Positions 2,598-60,525 of a stretch of DNA of 64,000 bases are shown here, piece by piece. Under the pieces are notes generated by a model that was not told the DNA's origin, did not search any database, and saw only the letters and a list, made by a program, of their open reading frames with translations. Source of the DNA: Chryseosolibacter histidinae. Lineage in GTDB: Bacteria; Bacteroidota; Bacteroidia; Cytophagales; Cyclobacteriaceae. Made by a program: the position numbers and the translations under genes. The stretch lies in the NCBI RefSeq assembly GCF_018598225.1, contig NZ_JAHESF010000014.1, positions 124,001 to 188,000 on the forward strand, written 5' to 3'. Positions within the stretch are counted from its first letter, which is position 1. Each line of letters starts with the position of its first letter.

Positions 2598-3161
2598 ATG
2601 AGCAAGGTAAATGTATTTAACTTCATCACACTGAACGGCTTTTACAAGGGGCCGGCAGAGGACATCAGCTGGCACATCCATGGCAGCGAGGGCAGCGAAC
2701 TGGCCATTGAAGGACTGGGCTCCGGGGCTACCATTCTTTTTGGACGCGTCACTTACACCATGATGGCAAGCTATTGGCCAACATCTGAAGCGCTCCGGGA
2801 TAATCCAGGGGTGGCGGAAGGAATGAACAGTGCCGAAAAGATCGTTTTTTCAAGGACGCTGAAAAAACCTTTATGGAACAATACGAAGGTGATGAGCGGC
2901 AACCTTGTGGCGGAGGTGAAGAAACTTAAACAGGATTCAGATAAAGATATGGTGATCCTGGGCAGCGGCAGCATTACGGCGCAGCTTGCCGAATACGGGC
3001 TCATCGATGAATACCAGTTTATGGTTGATCCCGTAGCCCTCGGCGATGGCACCCCCATATTCAAGGGCATCAGCCACGAGCTCGACCTGAAACTCAAAAA
3101 AACGCAAGCTTTCAGAAATGGCGCGGTGCTGCTTACATACCAGGCGGTAAAAAAAGTTTAA
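2598..3161 (+). CDS. Dihydrofolate-reductase-like (RibD C-terminal domain) protein
   Basis: This protein of about 187 residues is related to the reductase half of RibD and to stand-alone YyaP/YwjB-type proteins. Visible marks are FNFITLNGF at the start, GATILFGRVTYTMM, and the late strand MVILGSGSITAQL that forms the NADPH-binding end. The ATG at 2598 (before SKVNVFN) matches the family start better than the upstream ATG at 2565. It is followed by a YCII protein and an ECF42 sigma factor, a neighbourhood in which such reductases are common. The substrate is unknown. The stop codon lies inside the first heptad repeats of the array at 3153. Confidence 0.85.
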   Translation: MSKVNVFNFITLNGFYKGPAEDISWHIHGSEGSELAIEGLGSGATILFGRVTYTMMASYWPTSEALRDNPGVAEGMNSAEKIVFSRTLKKPLWNNTKVMSGNLVAEVKKLKQDSDKDMVILGSGSITAQLAEYGLIDEYQFMVDPVALGDGTPIFKGISHELDLKLKKTQAFRNGAVLLTYQAVKKV

Positions 3162-3238
3162 GGTTTAAAGTTGAAAGTTATAAGTTTAAAGTTGAGGGTC
3201 GTGCGGCGCCCAACTTTAAACCTTAAATTTTAAATTTG
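3153..3238. repeat. Inverted heptad-repeat array, word AAAGTTT
   Basis: Left arm 3153-3194 is six consecutive 7-base units (AAAGTTT, AAGGTTT, AAAGTTG, AAAGTTA, TAAGTTT, AAAGTTG). The core is 3195-3210. The right arm 3211-3238 is four units of the reverse complement (CAACTTT, AAACCTT, AAATTTT, AAATTTG). An 11-base perfect inverted repeat (3184-3194 against 3211-3221) closes the core. The array starts inside the last codons of the reductase gene. Confidence 0.85.
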
Positions 3239-3277
3239 AAACTAACCACTTCTAAAATTAAAACATCGAATCAATTT

Positions 3278-3634
3278 ATGGACGAATATCTCATCATCAT
3301 GCGCCTTGACCTGATCACAAAAGCAGCGCAACCCTCTCCCGAGCAAATGCAGGTCTACATGAAACAATACCAGGATTGGGTTGGCGGCATTGCGGCCCAA
3401 AACAAATTCGTGGGTGGCAAAGGCTTATCAACCGAAGGCAAGGTGATCAAATCAGGCAGCGCCATAACAGACGGCCCGTTTGCCGAGATCAAAGAATCAA
3501 TAGCTGGCTTCATTATCGTCAAGGCAAAAGACTTTGACGAGGCTTCCGGTTTTGCGAATGCATGCCCTATTCTTCGTGGACCAGGCAACAGCGTGGAAGT
3601 GAGAAAGGTAGTTTCGGTACACAACGGGGGTTGA
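3278..3634 (+). CDS. YCII/DGPF domain protein, ECF42 partner
   Basis: This is a small cytosolic protein of 118 residues from ATG 3278. The longer reading frame from 3236 would start inside the repeat array and is not favoured. The DGPF motif (ITDGPFAE) and the C-terminal VEVRKV mark the YCII-related DGPF family. Such proteins are known genomic partners of ECF42 sigma factors, and the next gene, 52 bases on, is one. The biochemical role of DGPF proteins is not settled. The stop codon TGA lies within the first unit of the heptad array that fills the gap to the sigma gene. Confidence 0.88.
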   Translation: MDEYLIIMRLDLITKAAQPSPEQMQVYMKQYQDWVGGIAAQNKFVGGKGLSTEGKVIKSGSAITDGPFAEIKESIAGFIIVKAKDFDEASGFANACPILRGPGNSVEVRKVVSVHNGG

Positions 3635-3688
3635 AGTTTCAAGTTTAAGGTTTCAAGTTTAAAGTTTAAAGTTTAAAGTTTGAAGGGT
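3633..3688. repeat. Direct heptad-repeat array, word AAAGTTT
   Basis: Eight consecutive 7-base units in one register and one orientation: GAAGTTT, CAAGTTT, AAGGTTT, CAAGTTT, three AAAGTTT, GAAGGGT. The array starts on the stop codon of the DGPF gene and ends on the start codon of the sigma-factor gene, so it is the whole intergenic spacer. Unlike the other arrays there is no inverted arm. Confidence 0.88.
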
Positions 3689-4922
3689 GTTGATACCTCA
3701 TTTGTTTAGGACCGAGTACAGGAAGATCGTGGCCGTGCTTTGCAAGCGCTTTGGCTTCGAACGTATGGAGGTGGCCGAAGACATTGCCAGCGACACCTTC
3801 CTCACCGCCATGCAAACGTGGGGCATAGAAGGTATTCCTGAGAACCCAACGGCGTGGTTATACAGGGTCTCCTCGAACAAGGCGAAGAACTACCTGCAGC
3901 GCAGCACCACCTTTGGACAAAAAGTTATCCCGGAACTTGCGAAAGACATTGTTACCGGCACGGCTGAACTTGACATAGATCTGTCGCCGCAGAACATCAA
4001 CGACAGCCAGCTGCAGATGATGTTCGCCATCTGCCATCCTTCCATTGCACCCGAAGCGCAGGTAGGACTGTCGCTCCGCATTCTCTGCGGCTTCGGCGTG
4101 GAAGAGATCGCAGATGCTTTTCTCACCAGCAAAGACACCATCAATAAACGATTGTTCAGGGCCAGAGAAAGATTACGGGAGGAGAAGATCAGCATCGGGC
4201 TTCCCGCTGCATCGGAGCTCGACGAGCGGCTTGCTCCGGTGCTCACCACGCTCTACCTGCTATTCAACGAAGGCTACTACTCCATCAGCCAGGAGAAAAC
4301 CGTTCGCAAAGAGCTTTGCCTGGAGGCCATGCGCCTTTGCACCATGCTGGTGGAGAACCCCGGCACCAACAAACCACAGGTAAATGCGTTGCTGGCGCTG
4401 ATGTGTTTTCACGCATCGAGGTTTGATGCACGCACCGGCAAAAACGGCGAGATCATTCTCTACCAGGAGCAGGATACGGGACTCTGGAATACAGACCTCA
4501 TCAGCAAGGGCGGATATTTTCTTCATTGCGCCACCACCGGCGACAAGATCTCAAGGTATCACCTCGAGGCCGGCATCGCTTACTGGAACACTCAACGACC
4601 CGACACACAAGAGAAATGGGAAAACATCCTGCAACTCTATAACCGCCTGTTGCAGATAGAATACTCGCCCGTGGCGGCGCTGAACCGGACCTATGCGTTC
4701 TCGAAGGCCAATGGAAAACAGCAAGCCATCGCGGAAGCAGAGAAACTGGAACTGATAGACAATCACTTTTACTTCGCCTTGCTCGGTGAGCTGTATACTG
4801 GCATTGATAACCGCAAGGCACAGCAACATTTTCAAAAAGCGCTATCAATGGCCCAGACAACAGCGGATGTCAGTGCTATTCAAAAGAAGATCCTGGAAAT
4901 AAGAGGTCAGACTGGGGAGTAA
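3687..4922 (+). CDS. RNA polymerase sigma factor, ECF42 type with long C-terminal TPR-like extension
   Basis: This 411-residue protein has an ECF sigma core of about 180 residues: region 2 with DIASDTFLTAM and AWLYRVSSNKAKNYL, and region 4 with LCGFGVEEIADAFLTSKDTINKRLFRARE. It then has a helical extension of about 230 residues with YLLFNEGYY and repeated AALNRTYAF-type helices. This is the ECF42 architecture, whose extension is required for activity in studied members. No classical anti-sigma gene is adjacent. The start is GTG at 3687 (or TTG at 3690). The DGPF gene upstream is the expected partner. Confidence 0.9.
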   Translation: MLIPHLFRTEYRKIVAVLCKRFGFERMEVAEDIASDTFLTAMQTWGIEGIPENPTAWLYRVSSNKAKNYLQRSTTFGQKVIPELAKDIVTGTAELDIDLSPQNINDSQLQMMFAICHPSIAPEAQVGLSLRILCGFGVEEIADAFLTSKDTINKRLFRARERLREEKISIGLPAASELDERLAPVLTTLYLLFNEGYYSISQEKTVRKELCLEAMRLCTMLVENPGTNKPQVNALLALMCFHASRFDARTGKNGEIILYQEQDTGLWNTDLISKGGYFLHCATTGDKISRYHLEAGIAYWNTQRPDTQEKWENILQLYNRLLQIEYSPVAALNRTYAFSKANGKQQAIAEAEKLELIDNHFYFALLGELYTGIDNRKAQQHFQKALSMAQTTADVSAIQKKILEIRGQTGE

Positions 4923-4928
4923 GCAGTA

Positions 4929-5022
4929 AGTACGAGGGACGAGGTACGACGTACGATCTTGTGCTGCGTAGGGGCTACGATCAGGGCGCTACGTACCTCG
5001 TAAATCGTACTTCGTACTTCTG
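4929..5022. repeat. Inverted heptad-repeat array, word GTACGAN
   Basis: Left arm 4929-4956 has units AGTACGA, GGGACGA, GGTACGA, CGTACGA. Right arm about 4988-5022 has GCTACGT, ACCTCGT, AAATCGT, ACTTCGT, ACTTCTG, which read as the same word on the other strand. A core of about 31 bases separates them. The array begins seven bases after the sigma-factor stop codon. Confidence 0.82.
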
Positions 5023-14624: not shown

Positions 14625-15488
14625 TTACCCATTGATGATCTCACCACCGTTGACGTGAATGAATTGTCCTGTCACATACGACGCATCGCCGCAGGCCAGG
14701 AACAGGTACGCGGGTGCAACTTCAGAGGGCTCGCCTGCCCGCTCCATGGGCACATCGCTGCCGAAGCTTGCTACCTTGTCGCCATCGAACGTTGACGCGA
14801 TCAGGGGTGTCCATATAGGTCCGGGTGCCACACCGTTCACCCTAATTTTTTTCTTTACCAGGTTTGCCGAGAGGCTTCGCGTAAAGCTCACGATAGCGCC
14901 CTTGGTTGACGCATAGTCGATGAGGGAAGGGCTGCCGCGATAGGCCGTAACGGAAGAAGTGTTGATGATGACACCACCTTCGGGGATATGAGGCAACGCC
15001 GCCTGCGTAACCCAGAAGTATGAAAAGAAATTATTGGCAAAAGTAGTGACCAGCTGATCGGAAGTGATGTCTTCGAAATTCTTCTCTTCCCAGTGCAATG
15101 CTGCATTGTTGACGAGGATATCGATGCGTCCGAATTTTTTGATCGTTTTGCTCACAGCGCTTTTACAGTTAGCCTCTTTGCTCAGGTCGCCCGAAATGAT
15201 GATACAGTCCTGGCCTGTTTCCTGCACCATGCCCATGGTCTCGCGTGCATCGCGGTGCTCGTTCAGGTATGCGATGGCAATGCTGGCGCCTTCCTTGGCG
15301 AAGAGCACGGCCACCGCCCTGCCGATACCACTGTCTCCGCCGGTGATGAGGGCCACCTTGTCTTTGAGTCGTCCAGAGCCAGGATATTCATTGTGCACTT
15401 CAGGCCTGGGCTGCATCTTGTGCTCCTTCCCTGGCCTGGCTTGTGTCTGGGGCTTGCGCAGTGTTTTTTTCTTTCCTCCCTTTTGCAT
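14625..15488 (-). CDS. SDR-family oxidoreductase (YghA/glucose-1-dehydrogenase-like)
   Basis: This is a classical short-chain dehydrogenase of about 287 residues. The nucleotide motif is ITGGDSGIGRA, NNAA follows (IDILVNNAALHW), and the catalytic Ser-Tyr-Lys is complete (INTSSVTA, then YASTKGA). The long basic N-terminal tail (MQKGGKKKTLRKPQTQ) and the PEVHNEYPGSGRLKDKVALI segment are typical of the YghA-like subgroup, which is often stress-linked. ATG 15488 is chosen because the longer frame to 15614 is made by reading through heptad repeats. The substrate is unknown. Confidence 0.9.
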   Translation of the reverse strand: MQKGGKKKTLRKPQTQARPGKEHKMQPRPEVHNEYPGSGRLKDKVALITGGDSGIGRAVAVLFAKEGASIAIAYLNEHRDARETMGMVQETGQDCIIISGDLSKEANCKSAVSKTIKKFGRIDILVNNAALHWEEKNFEDITSDQLVTTFANNFFSYFWVTQAALPHIPEGGVIINTSSVTAYRGSPSLIDYASTKGAIVSFTRSLSANLVKKKIRVNGVAPGPIWTPLIASTFDGDKVASFGSDVPMERAGEPSEVAPAYLFLACGDASYVTGQFIHVNGGEIING

Positions 15489-15530
15489 GTCTGTTGTTTT
15501 CCAAGTGTGTACAAAATTTCCATTCCAATC

Positions 15531-15577
15531 GGTTGCCGGTTCGGTTGCCAGTTGCCAGTTACCGGTTGCCGGTTCAG
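15531..15577. repeat. Heptad-repeat arm, word GGTTGCC
   Basis: Units GGTTGCC, GGTTC (two bases missing), GGTTGCC, AGTTGCC, AGTTACC, GGTTGCC, GGTTCAG. It lies just upstream of the SDR start and is in opposite orientation to the array at 15702-15838, so the two form inverted arms around a core of about 125 bases. Confidence 0.85.
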
Positions 15578-15621
15578 AGCGGTGTGACTCTACATATGAC
15601 GTGCTCCGGGTCAAGTGAACT

Positions 15622-15649
15622 AGATACGAGATGTGAGATGAGATATGAG
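15622..15649. repeat. Short heptad-repeat array, word AGATGAG
   Basis: Four consecutive 7-base units: AGATACG, AGATGTG, AGATGAG, ATATGAG. It lies inside the core between the two large arms. The word differs from its neighbours but the period is the same. Confidence 0.7.
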
Positions 15650-15701
15650 ACAGCCAACCTCAGCTTGATTTGAAATACACCAGTAAAAGCGCACCCTTCC
15701 T

Positions 15702-15838
15702 CAACTTTAAACTTTAAACTTTAACCCCTCAACTGGCAACTGGCAACCGGTAACCGGCAACTTTAAACCTTAAACTTTAAACCTCAAACCTCAACCTCCC
15801 CCTCAACTGGCAACTGGTAACCGGCAACTAGCAACTGT
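15702..15838. repeat. Long heptad-repeat array mixing words AAACTTT and CAACTGG in one register
   Basis: Nineteen 7-base units with one four-base slip at 15800-15803: CAACTTT, two AAACTTT, AACCCCT, two CAACTGG, CAACCGG, TAACCGG, CAACTTT, AAACCTT, AAACTTT, two AAACCTC, AACCTCC, then two CAACTGG, TAACCGG, CAACTAG, CAACTGT. The two words alternate without a change of phase (general form nAACYnn). The array covers the last 12 or so codons and the stop of the GH1-like gene. Confidence 0.9.
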
Positions 15839-17152
15839 TACACATCTCGGCTGCGCATCATACAACCTCCGGTTTTCATGCTGCCACCATCCTTTTTGCT
15901 CAAGGGCGGGATGGTGATGGTTGGGATTGCTTGATAAGGCGCGCAAAAAATCAACAAGCGGTGTTGGCTCCGGGGTGCCGGTGCGCAGATCGAAGGCCCC
16001 GTGCTCGTAATGATCGTTTGGTTTGGTCAGCAGTTGGTTCCATCCATAGGAGCCCAGCAGTGCCCAGGCTGTAACGGCGGGAATGTTGAGCCCTTCGTTG
16101 TTCAGCGTCACGCAAATATCCCAGACTTCCTTAAACCACCGGATCTGGTCATCGTTGTGTCCATTGATATGAACCTCCGTTACCGCGATGGGAATGTTGT
16201 ATCGCTCCCAGCACTCCTTCAGCAACACTTTCAACCCTGAAGGCGACGGATGGTTCACCCGCATGGCCTCCACATCGGCATACCGGTGCTTGTGGTTGCC
16301 GCCCCAATAGTGCTCCGGATACAGCTTGAACTTCTGGTCGAGGAACCGCTCCGACGTAAGATAGTGATCGGCGCCGATCAGGTCAGGGGTGCAGGGATTG
16401 TCCAGGAAAAAATTCAGCATCCTGTCGGGCACCTTCAGCCATTTGAAATAATCCCACAGGGCATGATCCCGATTAAGCAAGCCGGACAAAATATCGAAGG
16501 TAAGCCACCGTCTTTCGTTTTCGAAATCGGCCTGGTATTGAAGCAACGAGGTGCTGTAAGTTTTGCTCAGGTCTTCGGTCTGCAGCAACCTGGCATCGGG
16601 GTTGATCTTGCGGATCTCCGCCATGGCCAGCACAATGGCCTTCATCTGGTTTAACAAAATTACGGCGAACGCGCCGGCCCTTTTACGATGCGGATACCAT
16701 AGACCATACAACCCGCTGAACCTTGCTGTGGTCAGCGGCTCATTGATGGGTGTGTACCACTCGAGCCATGGAAATTTCTCCGCCACACTTCCGGCATACG
16801 CCGCAAAAAGATCGGGAAGATCAGGGCTCATCAGGCTGGTGAACGACGGACCGTTGCCGTGATGCATGAGTCCGGCAATAGGTTTGATACGATGTCTGTT
16901 CAGGGCGTTGAGCTGCCGTTCTGTCCATGACCAGTCGATGGTTGCATGAGGCGAAAACTGGTGCCGTTCCCAGATCACCGGGTACCGGATGGCGCGGATG
17001 CCTGTTGCAGCAAAACGTTCGATATCCGCTTCACCCCGCTGGTAATGCCCGGTGTAGTGAAGCTGGTCCATGAACAGATCGCCCACCCTGTTAAACGAAC
17101 ACTCTATCCCACCCCAGATCTCAGGTATGCAGCTGGAAGACCTTTTGTCCAT
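15803..17152 (-). CDS. GH1-like glycoside hydrolase, last gene of a galactofuranose-linked operon
   Basis: This 449-residue cytosolic protein is related to family 1 beta-glycosidases. The acid/base motif is WYTPINEPLTT and the nucleophile motif is AVTEVHING. Conserved AIRYPVIWER and HHGN near the start also fit. Its start overlaps the end of glf by 32 bases, so it is co-translated with UDP-galactopyranose mutase and a glycosyltransferase. That setting suggests a role in making or editing a surface glycan rather than catabolism. The C-terminal residues VASCRLPVAS are encoded by heptad repeats, so the stop codon was probably acquired inside the array. Confidence 0.8.
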   Translation of the reverse strand: MDKRSSSCIPEIWGGIECSFNRVGDLFMDQLHYTGHYQRGEADIERFAATGIRAIRYPVIWERHQFSPHATIDWSWTERQLNALNRHRIKPIAGLMHHGNGPSFTSLMSPDLPDLFAAYAGSVAEKFPWLEWYTPINEPLTTARFSGLYGLWYPHRKRAGAFAVILLNQMKAIVLAMAEIRKINPDARLLQTEDLSKTYSTSLLQYQADFENERRWLTFDILSGLLNRDHALWDYFKWLKVPDRMLNFFLDNPCTPDLIGADHYLTSERFLDQKFKLYPEHYWGGNHKHRYADVEAMRVNHPSPSGLKVLLKECWERYNIPIAVTEVHINGHNDDQIRWFKEVWDICVTLNNEGLNIPAVTAWALLGSYGWNQLLTKPNDHYEHGAFDLRTGTPEPTPLVDFLRALSSNPNHHHPALEQKGWWQHENRRLYDAQPRCVTVASCRLPVAS

Positions 17153-29053: not shown

Positions 29054-29184
29054 CAGTTGCCGGTTGCCAGTTACCGGTTGCCGGTTAGACTGGGCGCTGG
29101 CGTTTCACATTTACGGTTCTGATTCTACAGGTCTAAAAGCATTATCTCACGGTACCGAAACTGGCAACCGGTAACTGGCAACTA
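29054..29184. repeat. Inverted heptad-repeat array, word CGGTTGC
   Basis: Left arm 29054-29088 (CAGTTGC, CGGTTGC, CAGTTAC, CGGTTGC, CGGTTAG), core 29089-29156, right arm 29157-29184 (GAAACTG, GCAACCG, GTAACTG, GCAACTA). The arms fill the gap between the permease start and the ATPase stop, and the last right-arm unit contains the stop codon. Confidence 0.85.
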
Positions 29185-29886: not shown

Positions 29887-29950
29887 GGTTTTTGTAATAT
29901 CCCGTTTAATTTTAAATCGTTTATCGGGTAAAATTGTTACACCGAGAGAT

Positions 29951-30017
29951 TTAAAGTTTAAGGTTTAAAGTTGGGCGTCCCTAAACTTGAAACTTGAAAC
30001 TTTTAACCTGAAACTAG
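29951..30017. repeat. Inverted heptad-repeat array between ybbA-like and tesA
   Basis: Left arm 29951-29971 (TTAAAGT, TTAAGGT, TTAAAGT), short core (TGGGCGT plus CCCT), right arm 29983-30017 (AAACTTG, AAACTTG, AAACTTT, TAACCTG, AAACTAG). It lies in the divergent promoter region of the YbbA-like ATPase and tesA, ending 13 bases before the tesA start. Confidence 0.85.
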
Positions 30018-60482: not shown

Positions 60483-60525
60483 CAGGATAACAGGATTAAC
60501 AGGATAACAGGATCAACAGGATTAA
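60483..60525. repeat. Tandem 8/9-base repeat, word CAGGATAA / CAGGATTAA
   Basis: Five consecutive units: CAGGATAA, CAGGATTAA, CAGGATAA, CAGGATCAA, CAGGATTAA. It lies just after the beta-barrel gene. The period differs from the heptad arrays. Confidence 0.85.

Follow-up and report, generated by a model that had tools for sequence, protein, structure and literature searches.

Paired inverted heptad arrays of near-fixed polarity lie at gene ends in Chryseosolibacter histidinae and carry other words in a sister species

The seven-base repeats at 15702-15838 of the window, the whole 64,000-nucleotide stretch that was analysed, form the right-hand part of an inverted repeat; its left arm lies at about 15530-15575. 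Elements of this kind recur in the source genome (G000), and each consists of an RGT-type left arm, a loop of about 20-200 bp and a reverse-complement ACY-type right arm. The counts reported here establish the pairing of the arms, their near-fixed polarity, the recurrence of a set of word classes, the placement at stop codons, a higher frequency in convergent than in divergent gaps, and the use of other words in a same-genus sister species (G002). This sister has the same architecture, and a third species of the genus (G001) is almost without it.

The original prediction described the array at 15702-15838 as nineteen units in one 7-base register with a single four-base slip, and both points were borne out. 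Nineteen AAC starts run from 15703 to 15833, with spacings of 7,7,6,8,7,7,7,7,7,7,7,7,6,12,7,7,7,7. The adjacent 6 and 8 add up to 14, which keeps the phase, and the later 6 and 12 add up to 18, or 14+4, which is the net slip. The lag-7 identity inside the array is 0.70, as compared with 0.41 at lag 6 and 0.38 at lag 8, and the highest identity in 1000 mononucleotide shuffles was 0.40 at lag 7 and 0.43 across lags 4-14. Tandem Repeats Finder splits the same array into several overlapping fragments. The two arms of this element match each other in inverted orientation over 38 nt at 76% and over 19 nt at 100%. In addition, the last ten or so codons of gene 15803-17086 (-), together with its stop codon, are supplied by the array; the product of this gene is glycosyl hydrolase family 1-like (Pfam). 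The window also holds further arrays (Table 1) and a nine-base tandem array, CAGGATTAA, at 60483-60525. The gene at 3702-4922 encodes a sigma-70-like protein with DUF6596 and has seven own-genome matches at E 0.001 or better.

Table 1. Arrays, elements and adjoining genes in the window
Position	Strand	Feature	Basis
3151..3244		Element with AAAGTTT-class left and AAACTTT-class right arm around a short loop; overlaps end of gene 2598-3161	RNA fold z -4.4
3631..3692		AAGTTTA-class array between two genes, at stop codon of gene 3278-3634	Array listing, gene call
4927..5021		Paired GGTACGA / TCGTACT-class arrays, past stop codon of gene 3702-4922	Array listing, gene call
14625..15614	-	Neighbouring gene, SDR family oxidoreductase	Gene call and domain search
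15530..15575	+	Left arm, GTTGCC-class heptads (RGT type)	Inverted match to 15719-15756, 15738-15769, 15731-15749, 15805-15823; lag-7 array 15540-15576
15619..15652		GAGATAT-class array in loop; no partner identified	Array listing
15702..15838	+	Right side of element, AAACTTT-class and CAACTGG-class heptads alternating, 19 units, one net four-base slip	Spacing count, inverted match
15803..15838	-	Array part serving as last codons and stop codon of gene 15803-17086	Gene call, translation ...VASCRLPVAS*
29054..29182		GTTGCC-class element between two minus-strand genes	Array listing
29950..30015		Facing TTTAAAG and AAACTTG arrays	Tandem Repeats Finder, array listing

The source genome is an 8.04 Mb draft in 122 contigs, in which SusC/RagA and CHU_C (type IX secretion) domains were found; such domains point to Bacteroidota. 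In a 424 kb sample, composed of the window and 18 stretches picked by place, the intergenic autocorrelation was 0.2928 at lag 7 and thus higher than at lag 6 (0.2668) or lag 8 (0.2649), as the original prediction had required, and the coding DNA exhibited period 3 without a lag-7 excess. The arrays are not unique to the window either: with a criterion of 16/21 matches, 809 kb contained 177 lag-7 arrays versus 7 at lag 6 and 3 at lag 8, and the remaining lags from 4 to 16 gave at most 13 arrays each, except for lag 14 with 111. Genes were called by a dicodon script, on which the arrays-per-gap counts and the arm distances depend. Tiny contigs (L036-L037) were excluded, as were L110-L112 (runs of N) and L117 in G001, which inflated the counts for that species. 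Extrapolated to the whole genome, the sample corresponds to about 1,760 arrays and 556 two-armed elements. Both figures are rough, since it was its array that led to the choice of the window, and synteny was the reason for including many of the later stretches.

For the pairing of the arms, an inverted partner was found within 250 bp for 117/179 arrays, whereas the flanks of another array yielded a partner for 24/179 and the word reversed but uncomplemented for 15/179. The corresponding count in G002 was 65/111, against 5 and 9 in the two controls. Of 61 pairs formed by neighbouring arrays no more than 250 bp apart, 45 were reverse complements and 5 were direct repeats; random pairs were inverted in 155/1500 cases. 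The left arms were RGT-rich in 51 elements, ACY-rich in 1 and tied in 4, and the right arms were ACY-rich in 58, RGT-rich in 1 and tied in 2, the two arms of one element not being independent in these counts. The polarity in G002 was weaker (left, 12 vs 6 with 16 ties; right, 15 vs 2 with 14 ties). The 56 left-armed elements fell into the word classes AAAGTTT (14), GTTGCC (13), GTCCAC (13), AGGAGT (5), GGTACGA (4), GAGCTG (1), ATCGGT (1) and other (5). Terminal inverted repeats, which are a trait of MITEs, are thus present in these elements. The RNA fold z values were -4.4 and -3.3 for two elements in the window, and -6.1 to -11.4 for four further elements selected by eye.

The proposal that the AT-rich and GC-rich arrays belong to one family is partly supported, in that they have a common ACY core and one polarity. 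In 865 units the core positions were conserved at 0.83 (A), 0.85 (C) and 0.91 (Y), values that are inflated because the phase was picked to maximise ACY. Mixed arrays recur, since at least 14 own-genome matches extend over the AAACTTT block as well as the outer CAACTGG block in gapped alignments. As for the keeping of phase across a switch of word, only a modest tendency was seen: AACYGG and AACYTY units 6-15 bp apart were spaced by 7 or 14 in 24/70 pairs, where 14 were expected (p 0.006, the pairs not being independent). Words differing at 3 positions exhibited an excess at spacing 7 (59 vs 18-34 at the others, with 45 at spacing 14), and words differing at 4 or more positions exhibited none (36 vs 26-48). 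The further idea that the period and not the word is conserved did not hold, because a limited set of words recurs in the genome and the sister has other words and, in 860 kb, 21 arrays at lag 8 in addition to 93 at lag 7. Selection on the folded RNA, which had also been proposed, is possible.

These counts bear on plain replication slippage with a preferred seven-base step, without spread or function, which we regard as improbable. In many genomes no long simple repeat is as common as the heptamer, and the over-representation of heptamers has already been attributed to polymerase slippage, with a polymerase footprint proposed (Mrazek 2007, cited by both PMC4679880 and PMC4692102); few loops are alike, which also accords with slippage. 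However, slippage leaves the inverted partners, the near-fixed polarity, the same words at many sites and the placement at stop codons unexplained, and the lag-8 arrays of the sister strain a fixed step of seven.

The elements lie close to gene ends. The median distance to the stop codon was 3.5 bp for the stop-facing arm ends, with 45/58 within 15 bp or overlapping, and the start-facing arm ends had a median distance of 51.5 bp, with 8/40 within 15 bp or overlapping. These distances refer to 56 elements in G000, of which 4 spanned a called gene and 3 were without a flanking gene; among the 34 elements in G002, 1 spanned a gene and none or one was without a flanking gene (33/34 typed). In tandem gaps the element was closer to the stop codon in 26/30 cases, and in 19/23 in the sister. 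When all arrays were counted, 78 ends were near a stop codon and 23 near a start codon, and the sister had 52 and 5, respectively. Among gaps of at least 40 bp, arrays were present in 35/86 convergent, 66/262 tandem and 16/98 divergent gaps, and in G002 in 16/60, 50/293 and 6/103, respectively. Convergent and divergent gaps differed at p 0.0003 in both species; for tandem versus divergent gaps the values were p 0.09 in G000 and p 0.005 in G002.

Transcription of either strand would place a long RNA hairpin directly past the stop codon, and such a hairpin could affect mRNA ends through stability, termination or ribosome release. REP hairpins near stop codons can affect translation. U-tract terminator-like sites were equally frequent in G000 at gene ends with arrays (22/136) and without (48/279; p 0.89), and in G002 they were found at 9/82 and 61/308, respectively (p 0.075), which leans in the predicted direction. 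There is accordingly no sign in G000, and a weak one in G002, that the elements replace U-tract terminators. Sense-strand wobble pairs in the arms exhibited no clear preference (G-U 33, A-C 22). As a separate observation, convergent ends carried U-tract terminator-like sites more often in the array-poor G001 (22/56) than in G000 (35/168; p 0.008).

For the comparison across species, 207 reciprocal best hits between the sampled parts of G000 and G002 were used (median identity 68%). Among 119 orthologous gaps, arrays were present in both species in 5, here only in 9, in the sister only in 8 and in neither in 97. The one-sided counts include misses, as the sister gap opposite C21b 79022, counted as array-free, shows a weaker hairpin. 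The words differ between the species in the five doubly occupied gaps. In one of the five, the window gap 3635-3701, the words are related (AAGTTTC/AAGTTTA vs AAGTTCC/AAGATCC), and the two gaps are perhaps paralogous. Where only one species had an array (17 gaps), the array-bearing side was the longer one (median difference 86 bp, p 0.017), apart from two gaps with differences of -171 and -340 bp. G001 had 3 lag-7 arrays in 325 kb, and in twenty single stretches of relatives (10.8-20 kb) one G002 stretch had 2 lag-7 arrays and the others 0-1. A 311-base query of the array locus gave at least 84 matches in G000 (40/379 candidates scored), and 0 in G001, 3 in G002 and 1 in G017.

Arrays of other periods were also seen in the two relatives. 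In G002, L062 8771-8912, L063 8077-8267 and L094 289-833 hold inverted pairs of eight-base units of the CAATGTGC/GCACATTG and GTGTTAAT/CACATTAA classes. In G001, L113 13626-13761, L100 14432-14513 and L114 7935-7975 are intergenic 11-base arrays of the GCCTTAGAGAA class; these 11-base arrays (9 lag-11 arrays in 325 kb) have no inverted partner and lie mostly far from gene ends, and they were set aside.

A more daring proposal is that a dedicated copying activity, rather than ordinary slippage, writes the paired inverted heptad arrays at gene ends, measuring seven bases (sometimes eight), giving both arms one polarity and using a dictionary of words proper to each lineage. We give this little chance; if true, one hairpin design could occupy corresponding gaps of related species and yet be spelled with other letters.

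The loops are mostly unrelated in sequence, with lengths typical of the word class, so whole-element copying is not directly visible. Loop homology was assessed by masked hexamer counts, since BLAST of the loops is confounded by array words within them. The top hexamer tested, CTTCGA, occurred 16 times versus 1.3 expected (p 1.4e-12, uncorrected) and was present in 13/56 loops of several word classes; it was not enriched in the loops of G002 (1 vs 2.0 expected). Examples of the CTTCGA(T) enrichment are in L023 and L033 of G000. An excess of TGATCA in the sister loops was set aside, those loops being unmasked.

The arms hardly covary within a class here (rank 0.50, or 0.56 by exact run), and the covariation is stronger in the sister (0.63 and 0.71). 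An arm-permutation p of 0.0002 was discounted because the largest "class" (32/56) merges different word classes. Compensatory change of the arms is therefore absent to weak in this genome. The arms of one element matched each other better than any swapped pair in 3/48 elements here and in 3/26 in the sister; one of these, L026 8855-8940, has an unbroken 28-bp stem. Copying from arm to arm at birth, fading later, would fit these values.

It is possible, though doubtful, that we are dealing with selfish miniature elements without benefit to the cell, the arms being recognition sites of a putative moving enzyme and the sites at stop codons those of least harm. The recurring words with their near-fixed polarity, the hexamer common to loops of several word classes, the extra length of array-bearing gaps and the fast turnover across the orthologous gaps all favour such an origin. 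Conversely, the loops are without extended homology, and no target-site duplication was evident by eye at 17 loci. A link to flanking RAYT (Y1 transposase) genes was not found within about 1.5 kb on each side of 9 loci in G000 and G002, in that arrays lay near the Y1 transposase genes (PF01797) at 3/9 loci, no excess over the array density. In addition, double occupancy of orthologous gaps exceeded the random-insertion prediction (p 0.008; p 0.014 with both gaps of at least 40 bp; p 0.038 with the longer gap of at least 60 bp), a comparison that gap length confounds.

The reading that we prefer, and to which we give close to an even chance, is that of dispersed REPIN/BIME-like hairpins whose arms change via seven-base slippage. 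Like REPINs and BIMEs, the elements would spread as whole hairpins, and at the 3' ends of genes they would be tolerated or retained. Their arms would lengthen and shuffle by slippage in steps of seven bases, so that the register would be preserved even as words drift or arrive by copying. What we infer here is how the elements spread, the slippage by seven bases and an influence, if any, on mRNA ends; the tests of termination, wobble and arm covariation gave these points little or no support.

Tandem heptanucleotides of cyanobacteria go by the name STRR. They resemble the present arrays as tandem heptanucleotides of bacteria, and three in Calothrix are cited by PMC4692102. REP, REPIN and BIME sequences are likewise dispersed, species-specific hairpins with two inverted arms, some of them at stop codons or providing them, and REP/REPIN arms are described as ending in a GTAG or CGTC tag (PMC3733652). 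Unlike those, the arms here are tandem heptads. The TAACTGA repeats of Beggiatoaceae, Cyanobacteria and five Bacteroidetes are intergenic heptamers, sometimes with mixed words, and TAACTGA fits the ACY form; they differ in being mostly in one orientation and just upstream of start codons, with one inverted case reported in the main genome (PMC4679880).

The closest likeness is to the GGGAATC (GGGNATC) heptamers of Xanthomonas, which are dispersed tandem heptamers in close facing pairs (Rehm et al. 2015, PMC4692102), with 70 such pairs reported in Xcc and 75 in Xac. Paired heptamers close to stop codons are thus already published, and both those repeats and the present elements lie near or overlap stop codons and are scarce between divergent genes (PMC4692102). 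Most of the Xanthomonas repeats have the same flanking genes in both of two related species, whereas here arrays were present in both species in 5/22 array-bearing orthologous gaps. A single G-rich word is explained there by quadruplexes (PMC4692102), and a reading as quadruplex-forming repeats, as proposed for Xanthomonas and Nostoc, is favoured by the same pairing and placement at stop codons that are reported there. However, the several words here have no quadruplex potential: four runs of three G or C were present in 0/180 arrays here and in 3/114 in the sister. Quadruplexes therefore cannot explain this genome, being refuted by the words themselves, and we consider such a reading hardly credible. 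Transcript ends in Xanthomonas are reported to be commoner at quadruplex-capable than at control heptamers (PMC4692102), which favours G-runs over hairpins there and counts against the hairpin reading.

In Geobacter metallireducens, "global regulator binding sites" of classes 1-3 are tandem octa- or heptanucleotides in opposite-strand pairs at variable distance, and are described as absent from a related species (PMC2700814). By analogy with IHF/HU proposed there, the arms here might be candidate paired sites of a global DNA- or RNA-binding protein, for which the same paired arrangement at variable distance speaks. This is very unlikely, since one genome has several unrelated words and the sister others, and divergent gaps, the home of promoters, are avoided. 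The scale differs as well, with about 8-24 pairs per class reported in G. metallireducens (PMC2700814) and several hundred elements estimated here.

Heptamer repeats have so far been explained piecemeal, as quadruplexes in Xanthomonas, a regulator site in Geobacter, a translational signal for TAACTGA, or slippage. The present genome displays a common skeleton of facing heptad arms, one polarity and placement at stop codons, with non-quadruplex words that differ between species of one genus, and the combination of several non-G words with different words within a genus was not found in searches of the open-licence literature. It thereby becomes testable whether the hairpin, the period or the word is copied and kept.

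A scan of other genomes for three CAACYGG units gave at least 119 stretches in many phyla. For 126 arrays in the stretches listed, an inverted partner was found upstream in 16 and downstream in 3, with 0 in the shuffled upstream control, so that the polarity is the same as in this genome (p 0.004, some stretches being from one genome). Of these arrays, 83/126 sit in an open frame of at least 150 codons, and the CAACYGG word alone is therefore not a mark of the element. In Acidobacteriaceae bacterium isolate Bin6.3, the CAACYGG arrays of L174 and L177 have inverted partners, and their loops share the same beginning (ACGAGGTAC.GCATGG), which may point to an element copied recently.
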